Shown here in pieces: positions 1 through 11,367 of a stretch of DNA of 11,424 bases; positions within the stretch are counted from its first letter, which is position 1; every line of letters starts with the position of its first letter. The translations under genes were made by a program, and so were the position numbers. Below the pieces are notes generated by a model, which searched no databases, was not told where the DNA came from, and saw nothing but the letters and a program-made list of their open reading frames with translations. Source of the stretch: an uncultured bacterium. GTDB taxonomy: Bacteria; Actinomycetota; Coriobacteriia; Coriobacteriales; Eggerthellaceae. The stretch is from NCBI GenBank assembly GCA_947649215.1, contig CANSQW010000023.1:1-11424 (forward strand). Reading direction: 5' to 3'.

Positions 1-199
1 CTGCCTGCGCTGGGCTGTGACCGACGCCGCCGTCCCGCGCGAGCTGGCCCTGCAGGATCCGCCCGCCGCCGCGGCTGACCTGGCGCTCGTCGCAAACGCG
101 ACGCTCGCCGACGATCCGGAGCGGGCCCTACCCGCGGCGACCCCCGCGCTCGCGGCCGCCGCGGCGCACTACGAGAGAGAAGGAACGATCGCGCCATGA
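1..199 (+). CDS. 3' end of an unidentified gene (partial)
   Basis: A reading frame open from the left edge (first full codon at base 2) runs to a TGA at 197-199. The visible tail of about 65 residues is rich in alanine and contains no motif I recognise. Its TGA overlaps the ATG of the following GntR gene in an ATGA arrangement, which is typical of translationally coupled genes in one operon. It is therefore probably the upstream member of the GntR/SPFH operon. The sequence is alanine-rich and GC-rich, so a chance open frame cannot be excluded. No function is proposed. Confidence 0.5.
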   Translation, partial: CLRWAVTDAAVPRELALQDPPAAAADLALVANATLADDPERALPAATPALAAAAAHYEREGTIAP

Positions 200-732
200 T
201 CAAGTTGGGAAAGACCATCCCCGCCGGGGACCTCTTCGAGCTGGACGAGAAGAGCAGCCTGCCCATCTGGCTGCAGCTCAAGAACCGCTTCATCTACCTC
301 ATCACGTCGGGTTACTACCTGCCGGGCGACCAGCTGCCCACCGTGCGCGGGCTCGCGGCCGAGGTGGAGATCAACTACAACACCGTCAGCAAGGTGTACC
401 AGAGCCTCGAGGAGGACGGCTACATCCGGTCGAAGCGCCGCCAGGGCGCCTTCGTGTGCGACGTGAGCGATAAGCCGGGCGTGTCCATCGCCGTCACGGC
501 CGAGATCGTCACGGCGGAGTACCTGCAGCGCTGCCAGGAGCTGGGCATGTCGCTGGAAGACATAGACGCGCAGTTCACGGCCAGCCTGGTGGAGGCCAAG
601 GCCAAGCGCGACCGAGACCAAGGAGCAAGCGATGAGGCGAAAGACCAGGGCGGCCGAGGGCGAGTCGTCGTATTCCCCCGCACCGCGGACGATGCAGGCC
701 AGCGCCAGCGTGCGGCCGGAGACGGGGCGTAG
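196..732 (+). CDS. GntR-family transcriptional regulator, YtrA-like
   Basis: This is a short one-domain regulator of 178 residues. A winged helix-turn-helix covers about residues 22-90, with the classic GntR signature PGDQLPTVRGLAAE (43-56), a recognition-helix segment NYNTVSKVYQSLEEDGYI and a basic wing (KRRQGAFV). Only a short helical tail (about 100-135) follows, with no large effector domain, as in the YtrA subfamily. Such proteins usually repress their own operon and adjacent membrane-protein or transporter genes. The start overlaps the preceding gene in an ATGA, with GAAGGA about ten bases upstream. From about residue 140 the frame runs through the start of the next gene for 101 nt, and its third-position GC drops. 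The last 35-40 residues are therefore probably unconstrained, or the result of a lost stop. Ligand and targets are unknown. Confidence 0.88.
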   Translation: MIKLGKTIPAGDLFELDEKSSLPIWLQLKNRFIYLITSGYYLPGDQLPTVRGLAAEVEINYNTVSKVYQSLEEDGYIRSKRRQGAFVCDVSDKPGVSIAVTAEIVTAEYLQRCQELGMSLEDIDAQFTASLVEAKAKRDRDQGASDEAKDQGGRGRVVVFPRTADDAGQRQRAAGDGA

Positions 733-1600
733 GCGCACCTCGCGCAACGGGGCGGTTGCCTTCACCGTCATCGTGTTCGCCCTGGCGGCTGCCGTCGTGT
801 GCGCCGTGGCCCAGGCGACGGTCGGCGTGGGGGCGGGAGCGCTTGTGGCGGCGGTGATCGTCGGCTGCCTGGCGGCGTCGTCGGTGCACGTCGTGATGGA
901 GTGGGAGAAGGCCGTCGTCATGCGCTTCGGCAAGTTCAACCGCGTGGCCGGGCCGGGCATCGTGTTCACCTGGCCCATCGTCGAGTTCTACACGCTGCGC
1001 GTGGACCAGCGCGTCATCGCCACCTACTTCGGCGCCGAGGAGACGCTCACGAGCGACCTCGTGCCCGTGAACGTGGACGCCGTCGTGTTCTGGATGGTGT
1101 TCTCGGCGAAGAAGGCGGCCATCGAGGTGGAGGACTACGCGAGCGCCGTGTCGTGGATGTCCCAGGCCATGCTGCGCAAGGCCATCGGCCGCGCGACGCT
1201 TGCCGAGGTGGCCGCGCGCCGCGACCAGCTGGACGCCGAGCTCAAGGATGTGCTGGAGGAGAAGCTGGCCGACTGGGGCATCGCCGTCATGGACGTGGAG
1301 GTACGCGACATCGTGGTGCCCAAGGAGCTCCAGGCGTCCATGGCTGCCGAGGCCGTGGCCACGCGCGAGCGCAACGCCCGCATGATCATGGCCGAGGCCG
1401 AGCGCGACATCTCCGAGATGCTCCGCGACGCCTCCGAGGTGTACGACGGCGACGCCGAGGCCCTGCGCCTGCGCACCATGCACCTGGCCTTCGAGTCGGT
1501 CAAGCAGTCCGGCGGCACCCTCGTCATCCCGAGTGCCTTCAGCGAGGGCTTCGCCCCCGACCCCGAAGCTGCCAAGGCCACCCAGAACCCCGCAAGCTAG
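632..1600 (+). CDS. SPFH/band-7 (slipin/stomatin-like) membrane protein
   Basis: This 322-residue protein has a basic, disordered N-terminus (1-40), two closely spaced hydrophobic segments (about 41-60 and 66-83) and then an SPFH/band-7 domain (about 84-260). Slipin hallmarks are visible: WEKAVVMRFGKFNRVAGPGI, the FTWPIVE turn, the DLVPVNVDAVVFW strand, and a helical stretch with REVRD-like VEVRDIVVPKELQASMAAEAVATRERNA-type sequence (split here at about 233-260). Family members oligomerise at membranes, organise microdomains and often act with proteases or stress regulators. The specific role here is unknown. The start at 632 has AGGAG six bases upstream. The ATG at 692 is a possible shorter start but has no better site. 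The gene overlaps the GntR gene and probably shares its transcript, so GntR control is likely. It ends before a strong terminator. Confidence 0.88.
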   Translation: MRRKTRAAEGESSYSPAPRTMQASASVRPETGRRRTSRNGAVAFTVIVFALAAAVVCAVAQATVGVGAGALVAAVIVGCLAASSVHVVMEWEKAVVMRFGKFNRVAGPGIVFTWPIVEFYTLRVDQRVIATYFGAEETLTSDLVPVNVDAVVFWMVFSAKKAAIEVEDYASAVSWMSQAMLRKAIGRATLAEVAARRDQLDAELKDVLEEKLADWGIAVMDVEVRDIVVPKELQASMAAEAVATRERNARMIMAEAERDISEMLRDASEVYDGDAEALRLRTMHLAFESVKQSGGTLVIPSAFSEGFAPDPEAAKATQNPAS

Positions 1601-1705: not shown

Positions 1706-2179
1706 CTACTCCCACGCGACGGTCTCGTAGGCGATGCCCCGTTCGCTCTCCAGGTAATCGAAGAACGCCTGCGGCGAGAGCGCCCGCACGCGGCTCGCGT
1801 CGAAGCCGCGTGCATCGCGGGTGATCAGGAAGCTCGCGCCCACCTTCTCCGCCGCGATGGACACCAGGCAGTCCTCGAAGTCCTCCCATGCGCGCTCGCA
1901 GGCCGTCGCTATGTCCGCGCCGTCAATCGAGCAGATGCTCAGCCAGCCCAGGCTCTCGCGGAAGGCGGCCTGCACGTCCGCGCTCGGGTGCCTTCGCGAT
2001 AAGACGTGGAACACGTCGGTGAACGACTTGGCCGACGCCCATAGCTCCACGTCGCCGAACGAGCTGGCGAGCATGAGCTGGCGGGCGCAGTCGAAGTGCG
2101 GATCGCGCTCCTGGAAGAAGTCGATGAGGATGTTGGTGTCAACCAAGATGCGCGGCGTAGCGCTCGGCGCGTGCGTCAT
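1706..2179 (-). CDS. PIN-domain toxin (PIN_3-type ribonuclease)
   Basis: This 157-residue protein is essentially one PIN domain, a Mg-dependent RNase fold used by VapC-like toxins. It opens with ILVDTNILIDFF (catalytic Asp14). The central EDFEDCL segment supplies Asp103 and neighbouring acids, and LITRDARGFD supplies Asp122 and Asp127. The ending ALSPQAFFDYL matches the usual VLTPEEFL-like tail of the PIN_3 subgroup. The start at 2179 was chosen because AAGGAG lies about seven bases upstream. An ATG at 2209 in the same frame would add ten residues but has no ribosome-binding site. The gene begins inside the antitoxin gene (41-nt overlap), so translation is probably coupled. It is expected to cleave a cellular RNA when free of the antitoxin; the target is unknown. 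Confidence 0.85.
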   Translation of the reverse strand: MTHAPSATPRILVDTNILIDFFQERDPHFDCARQLMLASSFGDVELWASAKSFTDVFHVLSRRHPSADVQAAFRESLGWLSICSIDGADIATACERAWEDFEDCLVSIAAEKVGASFLITRDARGFDASRVRALSPQAFFDYLESERGIAYETVAWE

Positions 2180-2459
2180 TGAGCTGCTCCTTGAAGGTTC
2201 GGCGGTCATCGGGCTCGGTTGCGCCCATCCGCATGACGGCTAGGGACGACCGCAGCCGATCCCTCTGCTCCGCGGTGGGGACGCGCCGGCCGGGGGAGGG
2301 CCCCTCGGCCGCGCCGTTGCGCGGCAGGCTCCGCTCGGCCAGCAGGTACGCGTAGGCGGCGTTCACCAGCTGGGTGGGCGTCGCCCCTATCTCGCGGAGC
2401 ACCGCCGCCCCCTGCTCCTTGATCTCCGCAGGAACCCGCGCCGTGACGATGGCGTCCAT
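2139..2459 (-). CDS. RelB/DinJ-like ribbon-helix-helix antitoxin
   Basis: This 106-residue protein has an N-terminal ribbon-helix-helix region (about 4-45). VTARVPAEIKEQGAAVLREI followed by GATPTQLVNAAYAYLLAERSLP matches the RelB/DinJ pattern of a DNA-binding strand, helix, turn and helix ending in LP. The remaining 60 residues are polar and charged, and this tail probably wraps and neutralises the PIN toxin. The start at 2459 has a very strong GAAGGAGGG six bases upstream. A longer in-frame start at 2600 would read through the promoter and is rejected. The gene is first in a two-gene operon with the toxin overlapping its 3' end. Antitoxins of this kind normally repress their own promoter, and repeated sites over the -10 region support that here. 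A RelB-type partner for a PIN toxin is a mixed pairing. Confidence 0.82.
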   Translation of the reverse strand: MDAIVTARVPAEIKEQGAAVLREIGATPTQLVNAAYAYLLAERSLPRNGAAEGPSPGRRVPTAEQRDRLRSSLAVMRMGATEPDDRRTFKEQLNDARAERYAAHLG

Positions 2460-2592: not shown

Positions 2593-2655
2593 TTTGTCAT
2601 AGATTGTCATACAAAACTTGTTGACGGGGGGGGGCTCTATGACAGACTAGGGCAA
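2593..2655 (+). promoter_or_regulatory. Operator/promoter of oxidoreductase operon 1
   Basis: The left arm TTGTCATAGATTGTCATA (2594-2611) is two tandem TTGTCATA-like half-sites. The right arm at 2638-2655 (TATGACAGACTAGGGCAA) is its inverted counterpart, degraded in the outer half-site. The 26-base spacer holds a -35-like TTGACG (2621-2626) followed by a run of nine G (2626-2634). The same layout recurs at 7922-7985 before the second operon, which argues for a real binding site for a dimeric or tetrameric regulator. No clear -10 box at normal spacing is visible, so transcription may depend on an activator. The regulator is not in this window. Confidence 0.72.
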
Positions 2656-2657
2656 GA

Positions 2658-2674
2658 AGAATCCGGCCGATTCT
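2658..2674 (+). promoter_or_regulatory. Conserved palindrome AGAATC-CGGCC-GATTCT, copy 1
   Basis: A six-base-pair inverted repeat with a five-base centre lies directly after the operator. The 22 bases at 2653-2674 are identical to 7983-8004. It could be a second protein site near the transcription start or a hairpin at the 5' end of the mRNA. The exact conservation, in contrast to unrelated sequence downstream, points to function. Confidence 0.6.
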
Positions 2675-2916
2675 ACGTGCAGAGGACATGACAGCCGCGC
2701 AGCCCGGGGAGCGGCGAGGGGAGGCATCCCGTCGCACAGGCGCGCTGTCTGAGGAGGGAAGCACCGCAGGAGACGCGGCGGCGCCGAGCGCGTCGGCGTC
2801 AGCGTGGCGGCCAGCTCCTTTCCGTCCAGCCAGAGGAGGGACCATGGACTTCCCCCGCGGCGCGGTCCGACGAGGGCCAGCCGGGAAGTCATGGCTGTTC
2901 AAAGGAGAGGAAGACT
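2675..2916 (+). other. Long 5' leader of operon 1
   Basis: About 240 nt separate the conserved palindrome from the first oxidoreductase ATG. The stretch is GC-rich and contains a hairpin with arms near 2780-2787 and 2793-2800 (loop GCGCG, one G-U pair) and a smaller one (ACAG/CTGT, 2736-2748). It also holds the candidate leader peptide that starts at 2844. No riboswitch class that I know is recognisable. It does not resemble the leader of operon 2 in sequence. Confidence 0.4.
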
Positions 2917-2927
2917 ATGAGTGGTAA
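2844..2927 (+). CDS. Candidate 27-residue leader peptide
   Basis: A short frame begins at ATG 2844 with a strong GAGGAGGG three to four bases upstream. It encodes a small charged peptide (starting MDFPRG, ending EEDYEW) and stops with TAA at 2925-2927, overlapping the first eleven bases of the catalytic-subunit gene in another frame. Its translation would carry ribosomes onto the real start at 2917 and could couple or tune expression. The peptide resembles nothing I know, and the purine-rich site could be chance in such DNA. Confidence 0.25.
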   Translation: MDFPRGAVRRGPAGKSWLFKGEEDYEW

Positions 2928-5448
2928 CACCCTTACCCGCCGCTCGTTCCTGAAGACGACCGGAGTAGCCGCCGGGGCCACGTGCCTAGGCGCCGGGTCG
3001 CTCGGAGTGCTGCGGGCCTACGCCGACGACCAGGACGAGAAGCCTGGCGCTGGCGAGCAGCTGTTCAACTGCAACTGCCGATCCAACTGCATGGGCTCGT
3101 GCCGCCTGCTCGCCCACGTGCGGGACGGCAAGCTCGTGAAGCTGTCCCCCGGCGGCTACGAGGAGCCCGGCTACACCGGCTGCTGCCTGAAGGGGCTGTC
3201 CTATGTGGAGCGCATCTACAGCCCCACTCGCATCCAGTACCCCATGCGCCGCGTGGACGGCACCGAGCGCGGCGCCGGCCAGTGGGAGCGCGTGACCTGG
3301 GACGAGGCCATCGCTGAGATCGCCCAGAAGATCCAGGAGACCGTCGACCAGTACGGCCCCAAGGCCGTCGCCTTCGACGCGGCCTCGGGCAACTACGGCT
3401 ACATCAACGGCGTCTACGGCCTGTTCCCGCGCCTTGCCGCGTGCCTCGGCGCCATCAAGACGGCGGCGTGCTATGACTACGCGGCCGGCCACGGCATCGA
3501 CCGCGTGCTCGGCACCGGCGACTGGCAGTACTGCAACGAGCCCAACAGCGTGCTCGACTCGTCCATGGTGGTGGTGTGGGGCACCAACCCCGTGTTCACC
3601 CACCCGCACAGCTGGCGCTGGATCCAGTGGGCGAAGGAGAAGGGCACGAAGGTGGTCACCATCGACCCCATCAAGTCCGCCACCGCCCATCGCTCCGACG
3701 AGTACATTCGCGTGAACCCGGGCCACGACGGCTACCTGGCGCTGGCCATGGCGAACTACGTCATCGAGAACGACCTGGTGGATGACGCGTTCATCGCCGA
3801 TCGCTCCAACGCCGCCTTCCTCGTGCGTCAGGACACCAAGCGCCACCTCTCCACGGCCAACTGGCCCGCGGAGTCGGCCCAGGCCTACGCCGATGCCGTG
3901 GCCGCTGCCAAGGAGAAGTACGCGGCCCAGGGGCCCACGGCCGTGGCTGCTGCCGTGGCCGCCATCCCCATCGACTACTACGTGTGGGATAACGCCACTG
4001 GCTCCATCGTCCTGCTGGACGACGCGGCCGATCCGGCCATGGAGGGCTCGTTCGCCACGCCTGATGGCATCGCGCTCGACACGTCCTACTCGCTGCTCAA
4101 GGATCAGCTGGCGCAGTACTCCGTCGCCGAGGCCGCGCGCCTGACCGGCCTCACGGAGGACTTCATCGTCGAGTTCACCGAGCGCTTCGCCGCCGAGGAC
4201 GCCGTGTCGGTCAACATCACCTACGGCCTCGACCACTACCTCAACGGCTACCACAACACCTGGGCCATCGCCATCCTCATGGCGCTCACGGGCAACCTGG
4301 CCAAGCCGGGCGCGGGCTTCACCGGCGTGTTCACCACCCGTTGGTCTCCCGAGACGCTGGGGCTGTGGGTCACCAAGGAGTACAAGGGCCTCAACGCCAC
4401 CATCCCGTTCGGCCTCATGCCCGAGATCGTGGCCACCCAGTCGCTCAACGGCAAGCCCTTCCCCATGAAGACCATGATCTCCTACTGCGCCAACCCCGCC
4501 AGCAACCTGGGCGGGCAGCGCGAGTTCCTCGACCGCCTGCTGCCGAACCTCGACTACTACGTGGTCATCGACATGGAGATGACCGACTCGGCCCAGCACG
4601 CCGACATGGTGCTGCCGGCCACGTCCTGGTACGAGGTGGAGGACATCCGCGCCGGCTACAACAACCCCTACACCATCTTCCAGGAGAAGGCCATCGAGCC
4701 CCTCTACGAGAGCAAGCCGGACTCCGAGATCGCCTACCTGCTCGGCCGCGCGCTCGGGTTCGAGGCGTCGTTCCCCGAGGGCGATGACATCAACACCTGG
4801 GGCGCCATCCTGTTCAGCAACGCGGCCTCCAAGGCCAAGGGCCTCACGCTCGAGCGCTTCCGCCAGGAGAAGGTCATTCAGACCACGGGCACGCCGGGCG
4901 AGTCGTTCATCACGGGCATGACCTCGCCCTTCACCACCGAGAAGGGCCGCGTGCGCCTGTACACCGACAACCCCAAGCCGCGCCTGGACTACGGCCAGGA
5001 CCTCTCCGACCGCGTGGACGGCGAGCATCTGGTGTACTACCGCGACCCGGAGGAGTGCGGCGTCGACAGCCCGCTGGCCGAGAAGTACCCGCTCGTGTAC
5101 CTGCAGGAGCACTCCCGCTTCCGCGTGCACACCCAGTGGGGTCGCGTGCCGCTGCTGCGCGAGCTCGATCCCGAGCCGCTGGCCAAGGTCAACGGCAAGG
5201 ACGCGGCTGCCCGCGGCGTGACCACGGGTGATCTGGTGGAGGTCTATAACGACCGCGGTCACTGCGTGGTGAAGTGCCTCGTCGACGAGTCCATCGCGCC
5301 GGGCGTCGTCTCCATCCCCAAGGGCTGGCAGCGTGACCAGTTCATCGAGGGCGGCTACCAGGAGATGTCCCAGCCGGGCATGGATCCGTACCCCTCTGCC
5401 GCGTCGTTCTACGACGCTCGCGTCAACTTCAGGAAATGGGAGGCTTAA
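2917..5448 (+). CDS. Tat-exported molybdopterin oxidoreductase, catalytic subunit 1 (DMSO-reductase superfamily)
   Basis: This 843-residue catalytic subunit begins with a twin-arginine signal (TRRSFLKTT at 7-15, hydrophobic core, likely cleavage after AYA at 36), so it works outside the membrane. A [4Fe-4S] site follows: Cys54-x3-Cys58-x3-Cys62-x27-Cys90. The molybdopterin domain spans about 100-600 and includes VVVWGTNPVFTH, VVTIDPIKSATAHRSDEYIRV and DMVLPATSWYEVED. The dinucleotide-binding C-terminal domain (about 715-840) includes VEVYNDRGH and SIPKGWQRDQ. The segment CYDYAAGHGID (185-195) probably lies at the metal; Asp187 is a possible ligand, but this is not certain. The start has AAAGGAGAGGAAG just upstream. 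It is first in a three-gene operon with its Fe-S and membrane partners. The superfamily reduces or oxidises many small molecules, and the substrate here is unknown. Confidence 0.93.
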   Translation: MSGNTLTRRSFLKTTGVAAGATCLGAGSLGVLRAYADDQDEKPGAGEQLFNCNCRSNCMGSCRLLAHVRDGKLVKLSPGGYEEPGYTGCCLKGLSYVERIYSPTRIQYPMRRVDGTERGAGQWERVTWDEAIAEIAQKIQETVDQYGPKAVAFDAASGNYGYINGVYGLFPRLAACLGAIKTAACYDYAAGHGIDRVLGTGDWQYCNEPNSVLDSSMVVVWGTNPVFTHPHSWRWIQWAKEKGTKVVTIDPIKSATAHRSDEYIRVNPGHDGYLALAMANYVIENDLVDDAFIADRSNAAFLVRQDTKRHLSTANWPAESAQAYADAVAAAKEKYAAQGPTAVAAAVAAIPIDYYVWDNATGSIVLLDDAADPAMEGSFATPDGIALDTSYSLLKDQLAQYSVAEAARLTGLTEDFIVEFTERFAAEDAVSVNITYGLDHYLNGYHNTWAIAILMALTGNLAKPGAGFTGVFTTRWSPETLGLWVTKEYKGLNATIPFGLMPEIVATQSLNGKPFPMKTMISYCANPASNLGGQREFLDRLLPNLDYYVVIDMEMTDSAQHADMVLPATSWYEVEDIRAGYNNPYTIFQEKAIEPLYESKPDSEIAYLLGRALGFEASFPEGDDINTWGAILFSNAASKAKGLTLERFRQEKVIQTTGTPGESFITGMTSPFTTEKGRVRLYTDNPKPRLDYGQDLSDRVDGEHLVYYRDPEECGVDSPLAEKYPLVYLQEHSRFRVHTQWGRVPLLRELDPEPLAKVNGKDAAARGVTTGDLVEVYNDRGHCVVKCLVDESIAPGVVSIPKGWQRDQFIEGGYQEMSQPGMDPYPSAASFYDARVNFRKWEA

Positions 5449-5451
5449 ATC

Positions 5452-6072
5452 ATGCGCTACGGTTTTGCGATTGACACGAAGCGGTGCATCGGCTGCCACA
5501 CCTGCTCGACGGCCTGCCGCATCGAGAACAACCTGCCCAACGGCGTGTGGTGGAACCGCGCGCTCACCGAGGGCGGCCCTGAGATGGACACGCCGGCGGG
5601 CGAGTTCCCCGACGTGACGATGACCTACCTGACGGTGGCCTGCCAGCACTGCGATAACCCGGCCTGCGTCAAGGTGTGCCCCGTGGGCGCCACCTACAAA
5701 GACCCCGAGACCGGCGTGGTGCGCCAGGACTACGACAAGTGCATCGGCTGCCGCATGTGCATGGCGGCCTGCCCCTACACGGGTGTGCGCTCCTTCAACT
5801 GGGAGGAGCCGCAGCACACGATCGACTTCGCCGTGGGCGACGCCGACGCCGCGCCGCACCAGAAGCACGTGGTGGAGAAGTGCACGATGTGCTGGCATCG
5901 CCTGGCGAAGGGCGAGGAGCCCATGTGCGTGAAGACGTGCCTGGCCCGTGCTCGCTTCTGGGGCGATCTGGACGATCCTGAGTCCGAGGTGGCCACGCTC
6001 GTGCGCGAGCGCTCCTACAAGCAGCTGCTCGCCGACGAGGGCACCAAGCCGTCCGTGTACTACCTGGTGTAG
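5452..6072 (+). CDS. Four-cluster ferredoxin subunit 1 (DmsB/PsrB-like)
   Basis: This 206-residue electron-transfer subunit has sixteen cysteines in four sets: 12/15/18/22, 64/67/72/76, 97/100/103/107 and 144/147/159/163. These are enough for four [4Fe-4S] clusters arranged as in DmsB, PsrB and NrfC. It passes electrons between the membrane subunit and the molybdenum subunit. It has no signal peptide and is expected to be co-exported with the Tat-bearing partner, as is known for DmsAB. GGGAGG lies eight bases before the ATG, and only three bases separate it from the upstream gene. Residues 64-120 and 164-206 are almost identical to the second copy at 10747-11367, while the first 63 residues are only a little over half identical. 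Confidence 0.94.
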   Translation: MRYGFAIDTKRCIGCHTCSTACRIENNLPNGVWWNRALTEGGPEMDTPAGEFPDVTMTYLTVACQHCDNPACVKVCPVGATYKDPETGVVRQDYDKCIGCRMCMAACPYTGVRSFNWEEPQHTIDFAVGDADAAPHQKHVVEKCTMCWHRLAKGEEPMCVKTCLARARFWGDLDDPESEVATLVRERSYKQLLADEGTKPSVYYLV

Positions 6073-6126
6073 TTCCTGATGCGGCGCGTCGTATGCCTGG
6101 CGCGCCGCCTTCTGAAGGAGATACTT

Positions 6127-7389
6127 ATGACTGAACTCAACAACGTCGCCGTCGCCGACGACGACTTCAACCCGGCCGCGGCGCCGAAGGCGCGCGAAGC
6201 CGCGGGCGCGAAGGCCGCCGCGTGGGGCGGCAAGGGGCTGACCGCCGCCATCGCCGTATCGGGCGCCATCGCCGTGATCGGCATCGCGCTGTGGGTCGTG
6301 CAGCTCTCGGGCGGTATGGTGCAGACCGCCATGCGCAACCTCGACAGCTGGGGCCTCTACATCACTAACTTCATGTTCTTCGTAGGGCTCTCGGCCGGCG
6401 GCCTCATCATCTCGTCGGTGCCCAAGGCCTTCGGCATCAAGGGCTTCGGCGGCATCTCCAAGGTGGCCGTGTGGTCGTCCATCGCCGCCACCGTGTGCGC
6501 CATCGCGTTCGTGGTGGTCGACCTGGGCCAGCCGCTGCGCCTGTGGGAGCTGTTCGCCTACTCCAACCTGGGCTCGCCGCTCATGTGGGACATCATCGTG
6601 CTGGGCACCTACCTGATCCTGTCCTGCGTGTACCTGTGGGCCACCCTGCAGAACGAGCGCGGCAAGGTGTCGAACACGGCGCTGCGCGTGATCTCGGTCG
6701 TCGCGCTCGTGTGCGCCGTGCTCGTGCACTCGGTGACCGCCTGGATCTTCGGCCTGCAGCAGGGCCGCGAGATGTGGCACACCGCCCTGCTCGCCCCGTG
6801 GTTCGTGAGCTCGGCGCTCGTGTGCGGCACCGCGCTCGTCGCCATCGTCGTGGTGGCGCTGCGCAAGGCCGGCTATCTGGAGCTGGACCAGGCCTACGTG
6901 GTCAAGCTCGCCAAGCTGCTGGGCGCGTTCGTCGTGGTCGACCTGTACTTCTTCGGGTGCGACCTGCTCACCGAGGCCTTCCCGGCTGCCGGTGGCATGG
7001 CCGTGGTGGACATGCTCGTCTCCGGCCCGCTCGCGCCGTTCTTCTGGGTTGAGATCATCGGCTGCGTCGCGTGCGCCGTGGTGTGCTTCACGCCGTCGCT
7101 GCGCCGCCCGGGCCTGATCGTGGCCGCCTCGGCGCTCGCCATCGCCGCCATCTTCTGCAAGCGCGTGCAGCTCTTGGTGGGCGGCTTCCAGCTGCCGACC
7201 CTCGACCTGCCCGGCCCCGTGACCTCCATGACCGTCACCGGCTGGGAGGCCGGCGTGGCCGGCGCCTACGAGGGCATGGTGTACTGGCCGACCATGATCG
7301 AGTGGGGCATCACCCTGGGCGTCATCGGCCTTGGCGCGTTCATCCTGCTGGCCGGCCTGAAGTTCCTGCCCCTGCGTCCGCAGGACTAG
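6127..7389 (+). CDS. NrfD/PsrC-family membrane anchor and quinone-site subunit
   Basis: This 420-residue integral membrane protein has about nine or ten hydrophobic helices (near 38-60, 76-96, 112-131, 153-173, 186-208, 220-243, 262-280, 305-321, 328-345 and 391-412). NrfD-family features are present: SWGLYITNFMFFVGLSAGG, VVDLGQPLRLWELF, SPLMWDI and LVHSVTAWIFG. Such subunits anchor the Fe-S/molybdenum pair and exchange electrons with the quinone pool. The hydrophilic N-terminal 35 residues are alanine-rich. The start at 6127 is preceded by GAAGGAG with good spacing. An in-frame ATG at 6079 would add sixteen basic residues without a ribosome site and was not chosen. It is the last gene of operon 1, 54 nt after the Fe-S gene, and a terminator follows about 230 nt later. 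Confidence 0.92.
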   Translation: MTELNNVAVADDDFNPAAAPKAREAAGAKAAAWGGKGLTAAIAVSGAIAVIGIALWVVQLSGGMVQTAMRNLDSWGLYITNFMFFVGLSAGGLIISSVPKAFGIKGFGGISKVAVWSSIAATVCAIAFVVVDLGQPLRLWELFAYSNLGSPLMWDIIVLGTYLILSCVYLWATLQNERGKVSNTALRVISVVALVCAVLVHSVTAWIFGLQQGREMWHTALLAPWFVSSALVCGTALVAIVVVALRKAGYLELDQAYVVKLAKLLGAFVVVDLYFFGCDLLTEAFPAAGGMAVVDMLVSGPLAPFFWVEIIGCVACAVVCFTPSLRRPGLIVAASALAIAAIFCKRVQLLVGGFQLPTLDLPGPVTSMTVTGWEAGVAGAYEGMVYWPTMIEWGITLGVIGLGAFILLAGLKFLPLRPQD

Positions 7390-7619
7390 CTTATCCGTCG
7401 CGGCGTCTCGTCCCGCGGGCTCGGCACCCCTCCCGCCGGGCCTGCGGGGAGCCCCGCGTTTTCGCCCCGCGAACCGGCCCTTCGCCGGATGCGCGGAACC
7501 CCGCGGCTGCTCCTTTTCTTCTGGGGCCGCCTGCGGATGACCGATAGTCGGGATCAGCGCCGCCCACCCTTTGCGGCGCCCCCGACCGGCTGGGGTCCGT
7601 CTTCAACCGCCCCGGTCGC
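7390..7619 (+). other. Untranslated 3' region of operon 1 with small hairpins
   Basis: No supportable gene is seen here. Several short GC inverted repeats occur: GCGGGGAGCCCCGC (7444-7457), which is followed by GTTTT and could act as a weak first terminator; CCGGC/GCCGG (7474-7488); and GCGCCGC/GCGGCGC (7557-7563 with 7573-7579). The stretch probably belongs to the end of the operon 1 transcript, because the strong terminator lies just beyond it. Confidence 0.4.
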
Positions 7620-7665
7620 GCGCCGCCCCGCGCCTACCCAGCGCGAGGGCGGCGCTTCTGTTTTT
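7620..7665 (+). terminator. Strong intrinsic terminator of operon 1
   Basis: A nine-base-pair stem (GCGCCGCCC at 7620-7628 with GGGCGGCGC at 7647-7655) continues inward as CGCGC/GCGCG around a CTACCCA loop, with a single bulged A at 7646. It is followed at once by TTCTGTTTTT (7656-7665). This fits a rho-independent terminator for the upstream operon and insulates it from operon 2. Confidence 0.85.
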
Positions 7666-7715
7666 GGGGCTGCAGGGGGAGGAGCGGCGCCAAGGCTCGA
7701 GAAATCGCGCTCCCG

Positions 7716-7867
7716 GCGCAAATCCGGACGGTTTTGCACTCGCCGGCCGCCCTTCGGTCGGGCGGCTGTCCCCCTGGCTTTTCGACGACCTGGGGTTTTG
7801 CCGCGCAGGCTCATCCGGGGCGTCGGGATTATCGCGTCGGGGAGTGCAAAACCGTCCGGATTTGCGC
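7716..7867. repeat. 152-bp element with perfect 26-bp inverted ends
   Basis: The arms at 7716-7741 and 7842-7867 are perfect reverse complements over 26 bases, starting GCGCAAATCCGG at the left outer edge. The 100-base interior holds a perfect 7-bp hairpin (GCCGCCC/GGGCGGC, 7746-7752 with 7760-7766) and a direct repeat of GCGTCGGG (7820-7827 and 7834-7841). No open frame of note lies inside. It could be a MITE-like mobile repeat, a folded intergenic repeat or a protein-binding element. No clear target-site duplication is visible. Confidence 0.65.
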
Positions 7868-7921
7868 GGAGGCCCTGGTTTTCGCGGGCTCTTTTCCTTA
7901 TGCCGATCCCGGCGCTTATCC

Positions 7922-7985
7922 TTTGTCATAGATTGTCATACATTTTTCTTGACAACGCCATTTAGCGTATGACAGACTATGACAA
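7922..7985 (+). promoter_or_regulatory. Operator/promoter of oxidoreductase operon 2
   Basis: The left arm TTGTCATAGATTGTCATA (7923-7940) is identical to the operon 1 copy. The right arm TATGACAGACTATGACAA (7968-7985) is its inverse with only two mismatches in eighteen bases, so the four half-sites are more intact here. The 27-base spacer includes a good -35-like TTGACA (7949-7954) and an AT-rich stretch instead of the G run of copy 1. A canonical -10 at standard spacing is not obvious. Sequence upstream of 7921 does not match that upstream of copy 1, so the conserved block begins here. Confidence 0.75.
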
Positions 7986-7987
7986 GA

Positions 7988-8004
7988 AGAATCCGGCCGA
8001 TTCT
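7988..8004 (+). promoter_or_regulatory. Conserved palindrome AGAATC-CGGCC-GATTCT, copy 2
   Basis: This is identical to 2658-2674 in sequence and in position relative to the operator's right arm. It is a six-base-pair inverted repeat around a five-base centre and may be an extra regulator site or a 5' mRNA hairpin. Confidence 0.6.
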
Positions 8005-8267
8005 GAGAAGTAAAGGGGGAGCGCGACGGCGAGCGCGCAGCCGCAAGAAGACGGCGGCCTGCGGGCAAAGGGAAGCCGGGACGTTCCAAAAGGGTATCTC
8101 AGGCATCGACGCCGAGGCGCGGGGGCGCGCCGAGGCATGCAGGCGCCCGCAGGCGCCGTAGATCCGTCACCGGGCGCAGGGGTGTGCCCGAGGCTGCCGG
8201 GCGCTTGCGCGCGCCCAGGCCGACGCGTCGCTGCAGGGGGATATCCTGACTATCTCAAGGAGGAGAG
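8005..8267 (+). other. Long 5' leader of operon 2 with GC hairpins
   Basis: About 260 nt lie between the palindrome and the ATG of the second catalytic subunit. Three perfect six-base-pair hairpins occur in a row: 8116-8131 (loop GGGG), 8142-8157 (loop CGCA) and 8199-8216 (loop TTGCGC). None is followed by a T run, so they do not look like classical attenuators. A short frame from 7979 has no ribosome site and is not called. Confidence 0.4.
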
Positions 8268-10736
8268 ATGTCAGGAACCACTAGCCCGGGATCCGGGCTC
8301 ACGCGCCGCGGCTTCCTCAAGGCCACCGGCGCCTTGGCGGGAGCTGCCGCCTTGTCCGCCACCGCACCTGCTACCCTCGCCGCCCTCGCGGACACGCCGC
8401 ATGGGGCCGACGGCGAGCAGGTCTTCGCCGGCGTCTGCCGCGGAAACTGCATGGGAGGCTGCCCCGTCAACATCATCGTGCGCGATGGAAAGGTGGTGCG
8501 GGTTCGCGCGGCCAAGTGCCCGGATAGTCGCTATGACCGCATCTGCCAGAAGGGCATGACGCACCCGCAGCGCATCTACGCAGCTGATCGCCTGCTGTAC
8601 CCCCTCAAGCGCGTGGGCGAACGCGGCGGCGGCCAATGGGAGCGCATCAGCTGGGACGAGGCCATCGGAACCATCACCTCTACCTGGAAGGAGCTGCGAG
8701 CCCAGTACGGGCCCGACAGCATCGGATGGTGGTGCCAGTCTGGCAGCTTCGGCCTCTTGAACGGCTGCCACTACTTCGGCGCCTACACGCGCCTGACCGG
8801 CGCGCTCAAGATGGTCACCATCTCTGGCGCCATCGACATGAACTACTACACGGCCAACTCGGCTATGTACGGAGGCGGCCTGGCAGGAACGGCCAACGAG
8901 GCAACGGACTACGCCAACGCCCGCACCATCATCTCGTGGGGCTCCAACCTGACCGAGGCGCAGACGCACGTGTGGCACTTCATCGCCGATGCGGTAGACG
9001 ACGGCGCCAAGCTGATCGTCATCGACCCGTCGTTCACCACCATCGCGGCGAAGGCCGACCTGTTCGTGCCGCTTCGTCCCGGCAGCGATGCCGCGCTCGC
9101 CCTGGCAATGGCGAACATCATGATCGAGGAGGACCTCGTCGATTGGGACTTCGTCAAGAAGTCGACGGTCGGCCCGCTCCTGGTGAAGGAGGACGGAGCC
9201 TACCTGCGCCAGAGCGACCTCGGGCAGGCCGAGGCGGGCTCTAAGACCGACCAGATCATGGTGTGGGATGAGGCCGTGGGCGCAGCGGTCCCGGCGGCAG
9301 AGGCGGTCGACCCGGCGCTCGAGGGGGCCTTCGAGGTGGAGGGCACGGCCGTCACCCCCGCCTACGCGCTGCTCTTCGAGCGCATCTCCGAGTGGACGCC
9401 CGAGCGAGCCACGGAGGTGTGCGAGGTCCCCGTGGACACCATGCGGGAGATCGTGAGGCTCTACACGCAGAACAAGCCTTCGAGCATCTTCCTCGGCTTC
9501 GGCCCGGATCGCTACTACAACGGCCACAGCAGCTACACCTCCATCGGGGCCTTCGCCATGCTCTCGGGGAACTTCGGCCGCCCCGGCGCGGCGGCAGGCG
9601 TATGTCAGTACAACGGGATGCCCCTCGACGGCAAGTACTGCACGAGCCCCATCCAGGCCGACCAGGTGGACAACGTGGGCAGCGGACAGGCGGCCTACAC
9701 CACCGGCGTCTTGGCGCTGGTCATGCCGGAGGCGCTTGAGAGCGGCACCTACAACGGGCAGCCCTTCAACCTGAGGAGCATCTTCATTAACAACTGCAAC
9801 CCGTTGAACTACGTGGCCGACCGCCAGGCGCTCATCAAGGTGCTCGACCAGATGGACCTCATCGTGGCAACGGACATCCGCGTGACCGACACCACCCGCT
9901 ACGCCGACATCGTGCTGCCGGCCGCCCACTGGTTCGAGGTGCAGGACTTCACCTGCGGCACGGCGTTCCTCACCCCCTTCGTTGCGCTGCAGGAGAAGGC
10001 GATTGAGCCGCTGGGGGAGTGCAAGCCCGATTACGAGATCTTCAAGATGATCGCCGAGGGCATGGGCCTGCCGGGCGTCTACGCCGGATTCTCCGCCGAG
10101 GAGGCCATGCGCTACGTGCTCGACACCGATACGGCTGCCAAGTGGGGCGTCAGCTATGATCGCCTGATGAAGGAGAAGATCATTCGCTGGTTCCCCGAGG
10201 AGGACTACATCTACGCAGCGGACGGCACGTTTGCCACGGCGACGGGCCGCGCCCAGTTCTACTTCGAGAAGCTGGCGCCCTCCATGCAGTGGGGGCAGAC
10301 CTACGACAAGGACCTCGAGCGGCTGCCGTTCTTCGTCGAGCCGCAGGAGGCGTGGCCGACGAATGCGCTGATGGAGAGCTATCCGCTCACCTGCTATCAA
10401 GAGCACACCCGCTATCGCGTGCACTCCAACTTCAGCGAGGTGCCATGGCTGCGCGAGTTCGATCCCGAGCCGACGGTCAAGATGAACCCCGTCGACGCTA
10501 AGGAGCGGGGCATCGTCTCGGGAGACCGGGTGAAGGTCTACAACGACCGTGGTCACGTGGTGGTGAGGGCCGTGGTCTCCGAGGGGATTCGGCCGGGGAC
10601 GTGCAACATCCCCAAGGGCTGGCAGGCTGACCAGTACGAAAGCGGCCACTACCAGGATCTTACGAGCAGGGGGACGAACCCCTACGTGGCCAACTCCCAG
10701 TTCTCGGACCTTCTGGTCGAGATAGCGAAGGCGTAA
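8268..10736 (+). CDS. Tat-exported molybdopterin oxidoreductase, catalytic subunit 2 (DMSO-reductase superfamily)
   Basis: This 822-residue paralogue of the subunit at 2917-5448 has a Tat signal (TRRGFLKAT at 12-20, alanine-rich core, likely cleavage after ALA at 41) and a [4Fe-4S] set Cys57-x3-Cys61-x3-Cys65-x27-Cys93. The molybdopterin domain (about 100-600) has IISWGSNLTEAQTH, LIVIDPSFTTIAAKADLFV and ADIVLPAAHWFEVQD. The C-terminal domain (about 700-815) has VKVYNDRGH and NIPKGWQADQ. The two paralogues are about half identical near the C-terminus. They differ sharply around the presumed metal site: here it reads SGAIDMNYYTAN (186-197), with Asp190 the possible counterpart of Asp187 in copy 1. 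A different substrate is therefore likely. AAGGAGGAG lies directly upstream of the ATG. Its Fe-S partner follows after ten bases. Confidence 0.93.
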   Translation: MSGTTSPGSGLTRRGFLKATGALAGAAALSATAPATLAALADTPHGADGEQVFAGVCRGNCMGGCPVNIIVRDGKVVRVRAAKCPDSRYDRICQKGMTHPQRIYAADRLLYPLKRVGERGGGQWERISWDEAIGTITSTWKELRAQYGPDSIGWWCQSGSFGLLNGCHYFGAYTRLTGALKMVTISGAIDMNYYTANSAMYGGGLAGTANEATDYANARTIISWGSNLTEAQTHVWHFIADAVDDGAKLIVIDPSFTTIAAKADLFVPLRPGSDAALALAMANIMIEEDLVDWDFVKKSTVGPLLVKEDGAYLRQSDLGQAEAGSKTDQIMVWDEAVGAAVPAAEAVDPALEGAFEVEGTAVTPAYALLFERISEWTPERATEVCEVPVDTMREIVRLYTQNKPSSIFLGFGPDRYYNGHSSYTSIGAFAMLSGNFGRPGAAAGVCQYNGMPLDGKYCTSPIQADQVDNVGSGQAAYTTGVLALVMPEALESGTYNGQPFNLRSIFINNCNPLNYVADRQALIKVLDQMDLIVATDIRVTDTTRYADIVLPAAHWFEVQDFTCGTAFLTPFVALQEKAIEPLGECKPDYEIFKMIAEGMGLPGVYAGFSAEEAMRYVLDTDTAAKWGVSYDRLMKEKIIRWFPEEDYIYAADGTFATATGRAQFYFEKLAPSMQWGQTYDKDLERLPFFVEPQEAWPTNALMESYPLTCYQEHTRYRVHSNFSEVPWLREFDPEPTVKMNPVDAKERGIVSGDRVKVYNDRGHVVVRAVVSEGIRPGTCNIPKGWQADQYESGHYQDLTSRGTNPYVANSQFSDLLVEIAKA

Positions 10737-10746
10737 GGAGGCTGAC

Positions 10747-11367
10747 ATGAAATACGGAATGGTCATCGACCTCAAGCGCTGCATCGGCTGCAACACCTGC
10801 GCCATGGCCTGCAAGATCGCGAACTACACGCCGGAAGGCGTCATGTGGAACCGGATTCTGACCGAGGGGGGAGCCGAGCAGGATACTCCGGAAGGCGTCT
10901 ACCCGACCCTGCGCATGGGCCACGTGCCCGTGAGCTGCCAGCACTGCGAGAACCCGGCCTGCGTGAAGGTGTGCCCCGTGGGCGCCACCTACAAGGACCC
11001 GGAGACCGGAGTGGTGCGCCAGGACTACGACAAGTGCATCGGCTGCCGCATGTGCATGGCAGCGTGCCCCTACACGGGCGTGCGGTCGTTCAACTGGGAG
11101 GAGCCGAGCTACGCCGTTGACGTCATCTTCGGCGACGCCGACGCCGCGCCGCACCAGAAGCACGTGGTTGAGAAGTGCACGTTCTGCTACCAGCGTCTTT
11201 CCCGAGGGGAGACGCCGGCTTGCATGGAGCTCTGTCCCGGCCGCGCCCGCTTCTGGGGCGATCTGGACGACCCAGAAAGCGAGGTGGCCACGCTCGTGCG
11301 CGAGCGCCCGCATAGGCAGCTGCTCGCTGACGAGGGCACCAAGCCCTCCGTGTACTACCTGGTGTAA
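10747..11367 (+). CDS. Four-cluster ferredoxin subunit 2 (DmsB/PsrB-like)
   Basis: This 206-residue protein is the same length as the copy in operon 1 and has all sixteen cluster cysteines at the same positions (12/15/18/22, 64/67/72/76, 97/100/103/107, 144/147/159/163). It should carry four [4Fe-4S] clusters and connect the second catalytic subunit to a membrane partner. AAGGAGG sits six bases before the ATG, and ten bases separate it from the upstream gene, so the two are co-transcribed. From residue 64 to 120 only one residue differs from copy 1, and the C-terminal 43 residues differ at only a few positions. The N-terminal part has diverged, probably where it meets its own catalytic subunit. 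Confidence 0.94.
   Translation: MKYGMVIDLKRCIGCNTCAMACKIANYTPEGVMWNRILTEGGAEQDTPEGVYPTLRMGHVPVSCQHCENPACVKVCPVGATYKDPETGVVRQDYDKCIGCRMCMAACPYTGVRSFNWEEPSYAVDVIFGDADAAPHQKHVVEKCTFCYQRLSRGETPACMELCPGRARFWGDLDDPESEVATLVRERPHRQLLADEGTKPSVYYLV

Follow-up and report, generated by a model that had tools for sequence, protein, structure and literature searches.

Two matched promoter/operator modules upstream of paralogous MopB operons in an Eggerthellaceae contig and a YtrA-type GntR protein as their candidate regulator

The best solved relative of the regulator considered here is YtrASa of Sulfolobus acidocaldarius (6sbs), a member of the YtrA subfamily of GntR proteins. According to the accessible part of the publication, YtrASa represses two loci, one of them its own operon with a gene for a membrane protein. 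Its operator covers the transcription start and has a 14-bp core flanked by half-sites, each a direct repeat of the half next to it (PMC6746942). Most YtrA members are encoded in an operon with ABC transporter genes, and NanR, FarR and NagQ are GntR regulators with direct-repeat operators (accessible part of PMC4494728); three NanR dimers occupy a (GGTATA)3 operator (accessible parts of PMC4494728 and PMC8012715). For Eggerthella lenta, the genes Elen_2451-2454, linked to steroid 21-dehydroxylation, are given as FdhD, 4Fe-4S, MopB and SPFH in the accessible part of a commentary (PMC11835702). In this study, we analyzed a stretch of 11,424 bases, here called the window, which is one entire contig (CANSQW010000023.1; C23) of the fragmented genome of an uncultured Eggerthellaceae bacterium (1.74 Mb, 56.6% complete; closest relatives G001 and G002). 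It carries two matched promoter/operator modules, A and B, upstream of molybdopterin oxidoreductase (MopB) operons, and a gene for a YtrA-type GntR protein.

Like YtrASa, the system of the window combines a GntR/YtrA protein, half-site repeats and a membrane-protein gene in the operon. Unlike the window protein, YtrASa is archaeal, its targets are membrane proteins and not molybdoenzymes, and the accessible part of PMC6746942 describes no SPFH or NrfD-like partner. Half-sites repeated in tandem are shared with the operators of NanR, FarR and NagQ, which however belong to the FadR and HutC subfamilies and have different half-sites. The LuxR proteins DadR, CadR and HcdR of E. lenta, with 12 transmembrane segments, come from the same family of bacteria and likewise lie near molybdenum enzyme genes, but represent a protein family other than GntR (accessible part of PMC9734109). 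Elen_2451-2454 corresponds, by gene order and not by locus tags, to locus L235 of genome G129, in which genes for an NrfD-like protein (C5), GntR, SPFH, MopB and an iron-sulfur (FeS) protein are followed by FdhD. The GntR protein of L235 is a paralog, 40-42% identical to that of the window, and unlike A and B its SPFH-MopB stretch has a single TGTCATA and no tandem arms. Since the promoter differs, it is the kind of cassette, and not the regulator of the window, that touches the studied reaction. No published report of an NrfD-like/GntR/SPFH cassette or of its operator was found in the partly accessible literature covered, most subscription journals lying outside this coverage.

Sequence, layout and spread of the modules

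The blocks at 2593-2674 (A) and 7922-8004 (B) are two copies of one promoter/operator, each upstream of a MopB operon; direct reading and alignment thus agree with the original prediction. The two copies agree in 21 consecutive bases on the left, exceeding the 18 that had been claimed, and in all 22 bases of the tail CAAGAAGAATCCGGCCGATTCT, as announced. All seven copies of the half-site TGTCATA/TATGACA in the window lie inside the two blocks. The arms consist of tandem half-sites in inverted orientation, as had been proposed, with a complementarity of 78% in A and 89% in B; the outer right half-site of A is decayed (TAGGGCA). This layout fits the earlier idea of a cooperative dimer or tetramer. 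The expected TTGAC(A/G) was located in both spacers. The modules comprise the following features:

2594-2611, plus strand: left arm of module A, two tandem half-sites TTGTCATA (direct reading, alignment)
2621-2626, plus strand: predicted -35 TTGACG of module A (offset range common to 41 of 42 related promoters)
2638-2654, plus strand: right arm of module A, inverted half-sites, the outer one decayed (alignment)
2643-2648, plus strand: predicted -10 CAGACT of module A, 16 nt from the -35 (conservation)
2659-2673, plus strand: tail dyad GAATCCGGCCGATTC of module A, possible 5' mRNA hairpin (family-wide pattern)
7923-7940, plus strand: left arm of module B (alignment)
7949-7954, plus strand: predicted -35 TTGACA of module B (conservation)
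7968-7984, plus strand: right arm of module B (alignment)
7973-7978, plus strand: predicted -10 CAGACT of module B, 18 nt from the -35 (conservation)
7989-8003, plus strand: tail dyad of module B (family-wide pattern)

Comparison of 580 with 630 bases around the blocks by BLASTN (E < 0.05) gave no match beyond the two identical stretches and the inverted arms, so that no match extends into the flanks or the long leaders, again as predicted. The identical operator letters stand out because the adjacent, paralogous operons A and B have diverged to 34% (MopB) and 76% (FeS) identity. The -10 call rests on conservation, because CAGACT matches TATAAT at three of six positions, below the promoter-scan threshold; a consensus scan of 7380-8300, covering the stretch of module B only, found no promoter.

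A run of nine G at 2626-2634 of module A begins at the last base of TTGACG and lies between -35 and -10. At the same promoter the run counts nine in G003 and ten in G001 and is interrupted in G002, and ten G occur at one promoter of Parvibacter caecicola (G019). Because the length of the run alters the -35/-10 spacing, a slippage-tuned, phase-variable promoter A is possible.

Searches for module, GntR protein, tail and palindrome covered whole genomes of the family, while the fetched loci used for gene context were chosen for holding the module pattern or the GntR gene. The arm-gap-arm pattern gave 26 matches in 23 of 138 genomes, equal to 25 sites because B was counted on both strands, and none for the reversed control. 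It recurs upstream of MopB operons, other genera included. In the genome of the window, the 18-mer with up to three mismatches matched four times (A, B, the right arm of B and contig C63) against one reversed-control match. The third site, on C63, lies upstream of a cytochrome b-like/TorD operon; this Cys-rich/DUF4405/TorD operon is separate in the genus of the window (C63; likewise G002 and G003) and has its own TGTCATA tandem. With up to two mismatches, 27 matches were obtained in 100 genomes, that of the window included, against three for the control. Twenty of them, in nine genomes with a close GntR protein, all stand at modules or at the TorD-operon promoter in fetched loci; the other seven are single matches in seven genomes, six without close GntR and one (G065) outside the GntR search. 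The original prediction would have been refuted by a motif found mostly inside genes or at unrelated sites; the distribution went the other way, and the wider set of sites that it considered possible is supported by the C63 site and the modules of other genera. The 20-to-7 split, like the Fisher table and the palindrome-GntR distances given below, was derived by hand from listed positions.

The geometry was compared in 42 class I promoters (left arm with up to two mismatches; three offset duplicates and two class II rows removed). Counted from the first TGTCATA, a TTG-type -35 stands at offset 24-26 in 41 of them, CARA(C/A)T at 47-50 in 39 and the tail dyad at 64-68 in 39, with a -35/-10 spacing of 16-18. 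In class I modules, the predicted -10 lies under the right arm. Some genomes have lost the outer right half-site or carry the right arm moved by one turn (34-35 instead of 42-45) and keep CAGACT/CAGAAT, so that the -10 is separable from the operator. An A+T-rich dyad like ATTATCnnaAAATAGAATAAT directly upstream of the left arm was seen in L061, L063, L064, L066-L072, L074-L080, L120-L123 and others, at class I and class II promoters; it is absent from the window, L055, L056, L058 and L112-L119.

The tail, GAAT(C/T)..GGCC..ATTC, sits directly downstream of the predicted start and was found in 71 of 137 family genomes (control: 4). All tails were placed in two genomes: in that of the window, all five (A, B, C125, C185 and C229) are upstream of MopB genes, and in G129, two of three are at MopB promoters, the third (L274) having no cassette gene nearby. 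Tail dyads occur at MopB promoters of different GntR classes. As a GntR site the tail was rejected: class II promoters retain it, as does one MopB promoter without half-sites (L072:17207). Among 32 loci with tails of one form (first three pairs fixed by the form; other forms, e.g. of Gordonibacter, outside the count), the non-Watson-Crick combinations at the fourth and fifth pairs are ten U-G and no C-A, or six and none by distinct sequence, uncorrected for kinship. Since a DNA dyad has no reason to favor one side, this hints at a 5' mRNA hairpin. The hairpins of A and B do not exceed shuffled sequences in stability (z -0.5 and -1.1), and a search of the window against Rfam gave no match to a known RNA family.

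A YtrA-type GntR protein and its own promoter

The GntR protein encoded at 196-732 is probably the regulator of both modules, and the claim of one regulator for both operons is supported at the level of sequence. Most likely, it controls A, B and the C63 operon. The genes concerned are:

2-199, plus strand: NrfD-like membrane protein (C5), C-terminal 65 residues, cut by the contig start (frame read)
196-732, plus strand: YtrA-type GntR protein, proposed regulator of both modules (PF00392, 46.7 bits, cut-off 27)
632-1600, plus strand: SPFH/Band 7 membrane protein (PF01145, 128 bits, cut-off 23.6)
2917-5448, plus strand: MopB molybdopterin oxidoreductase of operon A (domain and profile searches)
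5452-6072, plus strand: 4Fe-4S electron-transfer subunit A (domain search)
6127-7389, plus strand: NrfD membrane subunit A (domain search)
8268-10736, plus strand: MopB molybdopterin oxidoreductase of operon B, paralog of MopB A
10747-11367, plus strand: 4Fe-4S subunit B, paralog of subunit A, contig end shortly downstream

Operon A thus consists of MopB, FeS and NrfD genes; operon B is cut by the contig end after MopB and FeS. The C5 fragment has a short match (18 residues, 83%) to C5 of the sister locus L055, and two intact C5 proteins from relatives match PF03916 (NrfD).

The GntR protein has 178 residues, no second Pfam family above cut-off and no NCBIfam model over cut-off. Its best matches in the PDB are short GntR proteins of 113-134 residues, led by YtrASa. 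By these searches, it is a GntR protein of the YtrA subfamily with a winged helix-turn-helix and a short C-terminal part that lacks a large ligand domain. The proposed DNA contacts of YtrASa, Arg42 and Asn51, correspond in the alignment to R51 and N60, which are invariant in eight aligned orthologs. Its neighbors are NrfD-like and SPFH genes, not ABC transporter genes; a transporter operon is a usual but not obligatory YtrA feature.

Relatives of at least 64% identity occur in 40 of 137 genomes (37 at no less than 69%), and further matches do not exceed about 55%. The 23 genomes that gave the strict module pattern all fall among these 40, and none of the 97 others has it (Fisher p ~1e-15, from a hand-set table uncorrected for kinship or linkage). 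Fourteen of the 37 genomes gave no strict match. One of them, G018, has a module by the looser 18-mer; among the remaining 13, the MopB promoter was readable in 12 and carried a diverged module in all 12 (weakly in L124), while G105 has no MopB gene on the fetched stretch. Three further genomes have a GntR protein of 64-67% identity; G148 and G116 have the module and G155 had no MopB gene to read. In G133, module and GntR gene are on different contigs, and action in trans is possible.

Gene clustering and protein searches gave the usual order NrfD-like, GntR, SPFH, module, MopB, FeS, NrfD. The MopB operon is often followed by genes for a radical SAM protein, a small Cys-rich protein (no Pfam match), a DUF4405/cytochrome b-like protein and a TorD-type protein (PF02613). 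An SPFH gene stands alongside 66 of the 67 GntR genes in fetched loci and an NrfD-like gene alongside 61.

TATGACAnnnTGTCATA, a palindrome of the same half-sites, occurs once each in 22 of 137 genomes (being palindromic, it was listed on both strands), with a control match in three genomes of one genus. All 22 sites lie 1.0-1.6 kb upstream of a close GntR gene by hand comparison and, in fetched loci, directly before the NrfD-like gene. For 60 cassettes of the 67 GntR genes (six without C5, one of these also without SPFH, and L135 with a masked stretch were left out), own promoters were compared; L067 and L068 were counted as class I by identity (78% and 76%), their residue pattern having given 'other'. 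The class I own-promoter palindrome, with up to three mismatches, precedes 23 of 35 class I cassettes and none of 25 paralogous ones. The class II own-promoter site precedes six of eight class II cassettes and none of the 52 others, and TTGTCTTATGATAA lies over the likely -10 in six of the eight class II own promoters. MopB operons can also stand downstream of paralogous cassettes, whose GntR proteins are 40-55% identical, and there the operators differ. At class II MopB promoters they are the related palindromes TTATCCTATGACAAT..TTGATTGTCATAGGATAA or TTGTCATATGA..TTGTCATATGACAA, and TATCCTAGGATA is found twice in the second cassette of G002 and at C185 of the window's genome. A change of GntR protein thus goes with a change of operator, both at the target and at the own promoter, which is the strongest argument that each GntR protein would read the operator beside it. 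Further GntR triads (L132, L133, L136-L138, L140 and L145) have no MopB gene on the fetched stretch and a common CCCTATCATGGAC-like sequence before C5.

The tail dyads at C125, C185 and C229 are accompanied by class II-like or TATCCTAGGATA operators. Since only A and B among the five tail-dyad places have tandem TGTCATA arms, the wider set resembles parallel switches and not one regulon. Sites of the window's genome may be missing because of its incompleteness.

Proposed mechanism and rival explanations

In the proposed mechanism, the GntR protein would bind both arms of a module, cover the -10 and block RNA polymerase, and it would repress its own operon in the same manner. The co-encoded NrfD-like and SPFH membrane proteins would report an electron-acceptor or quinone-pool signal and release the GntR protein, so that the two reductase operons would be switched on together with the split-off cytochrome b-like/TorD operon. 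If the GntR protein is in control, it probably acts by repression; this is preferred because the predicted -10 falls within the right arm, the near-consensus promoters of class II (e.g. TTGATT-N17-TATAGT) have their -35 and spacer under an operator, and YtrASa represses its own operon. The sensor role of the two membrane proteins, under the same premise, is proposed tentatively. A bacterial SPFH complex affecting respiration has been reported (accessible part of PMC12005517).

Several observations weigh against this interpretation. Of the 35 class I cassettes, 12, the majority from Adlercreutzia group g5, have the own-promoter palindrome half kept or not at all (at least four mismatches); it is absent from L126 and L128. 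Within the arms of the module the half-sites repeat directly, whereas at the own promoter they form an inverted pair. The C5 promoter of the window itself lies beyond the contig end. As the GntR gene usually adjoins the module, the co-occurrence is partly linkage. The C63 site carries the left arm only, some MopB operons in fetched loci have no TGTCATA half-sites, and the sensor role of C5 and SPFH is inferred only from their constant company with GntR. It may be added that the half-site spacing of the own-promoter palindrome differs from the long YtrA motif given in the accessible part of PMC6746942.

The same GntR protein could also act with opposite sign, activating from the left arm with the right arm as a brake, which counts as a further point against repression but appears rather unlikely. 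Activator sites commonly lie upstream of the -35, the left arm begins about 26 bases upstream of it, and L120-L123 retain the left arm and have lost the outer right half-site. Against activation stand the overlap of the right arm with the -10, that of class II operators with the -35 and the spacer of near-consensus promoters, and the repression exerted by the closest solved relative, YtrASa (accessible part of PMC6746942). A resemblance of the modules due to operon duplication only, with no common regulator, would agree with the adjacent position and paralogy of operons A and B. It was set aside as extremely improbable because the left arms and tails are identical while the MopB proteins share only 34% identity; leaders and flanks are unmatched, the geometry is held across genera, and further half-sites are present at the C63 promoter as well as upstream of the GntR operon of relatives.

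Regulators of other families were considered as well. The 10-bp tandem repeats of the modules resemble Pho-box-like direct repeats, and tandem repeats with one-turn spacing suit the OmpR/PhoB class. An open reading frame (ORF) of OmpR type stands directly upstream of C5 in five of 46 loci (L055 and L114-L117), all from the genus of the window or Adlercreutzia group g5, but the remaining 41 loci, many of them carrying the same module, showed none, and binding by such a response regulator is considered very unlikely. The original prediction had pointed to membrane-bound LuxR-type regulators, and in this respect it was not supported. Regulators of this kind are known for the catechol dehydroxylases of E. 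lenta. Such regulators are published near metabolic enzymes of E. lenta (accessible part of PMC9734109), and LuxR domains are abundant, each of 24 module genomes having between 9 and 114 matches. However, a search for the LuxR helix-turn-helix consensus in the 46 loci around modules and cassettes gave three ORFs in only two loci and none in the window, the sensitivity of the consensus being uncalibrated, the flanks unequal in length and LuxR co-occurrence not compared. A LuxR-type reader was therefore set aside as highly improbable, and the window itself encodes the candidate GntR protein.

Neighboring features and implications

Other genes can intervene between cassette and module: an AAA ATPase gene in L063, L067 and L080, and in the window the following pair:

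1706-2459, minus strand: PIN/RelB-like genes between the SPFH gene and module A

The PIN-domain gene scored 63.4 bits (cut-off 27) and the RelB-like gene 21.8 bits, slightly below its cut-off of 22.4; a toxin-antitoxin pair is possible. At 7716-7867, an inverted repeat has 30-base arms with 92 bases between them. The arm sequence has 40 copies in the genome of the window (up to three mismatches; control: none). Of these, 34 face each other in pairs, at distances of 113-135 bases, and the MopB promoters on C125 and C229 also have the element nearby. This is a small repeated hairpin element. Within or next to the MopB operon, a radical SAM gene is present in L066-L069, L071, L072, L075, L076, L078-L080 and L120-L122 (Pfam checked on one).

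Eggerthellaceae possess many molybdenum reductases acting on drugs, steroids and plant compounds, and for many of them no inducer is known. A regulator with a readable operator would allow the targets of each switch to be listed from sequence and could serve as a reporter for inducer screening, and the GntR protein would add a second class of regulators beside the published membrane LuxR proteins. Conceivably, though with considerable doubt, the NrfD-like/GntR/SPFH triads are lineage-specific membrane-coupled redox sensors, each with a private operator for the neighboring molybdoenzyme operon. If so, one genome would run several insulated one-enzyme switches, one of them at a steroid 21-dehydroxylation-like cluster, and each would sense the quinone pool or acceptor.

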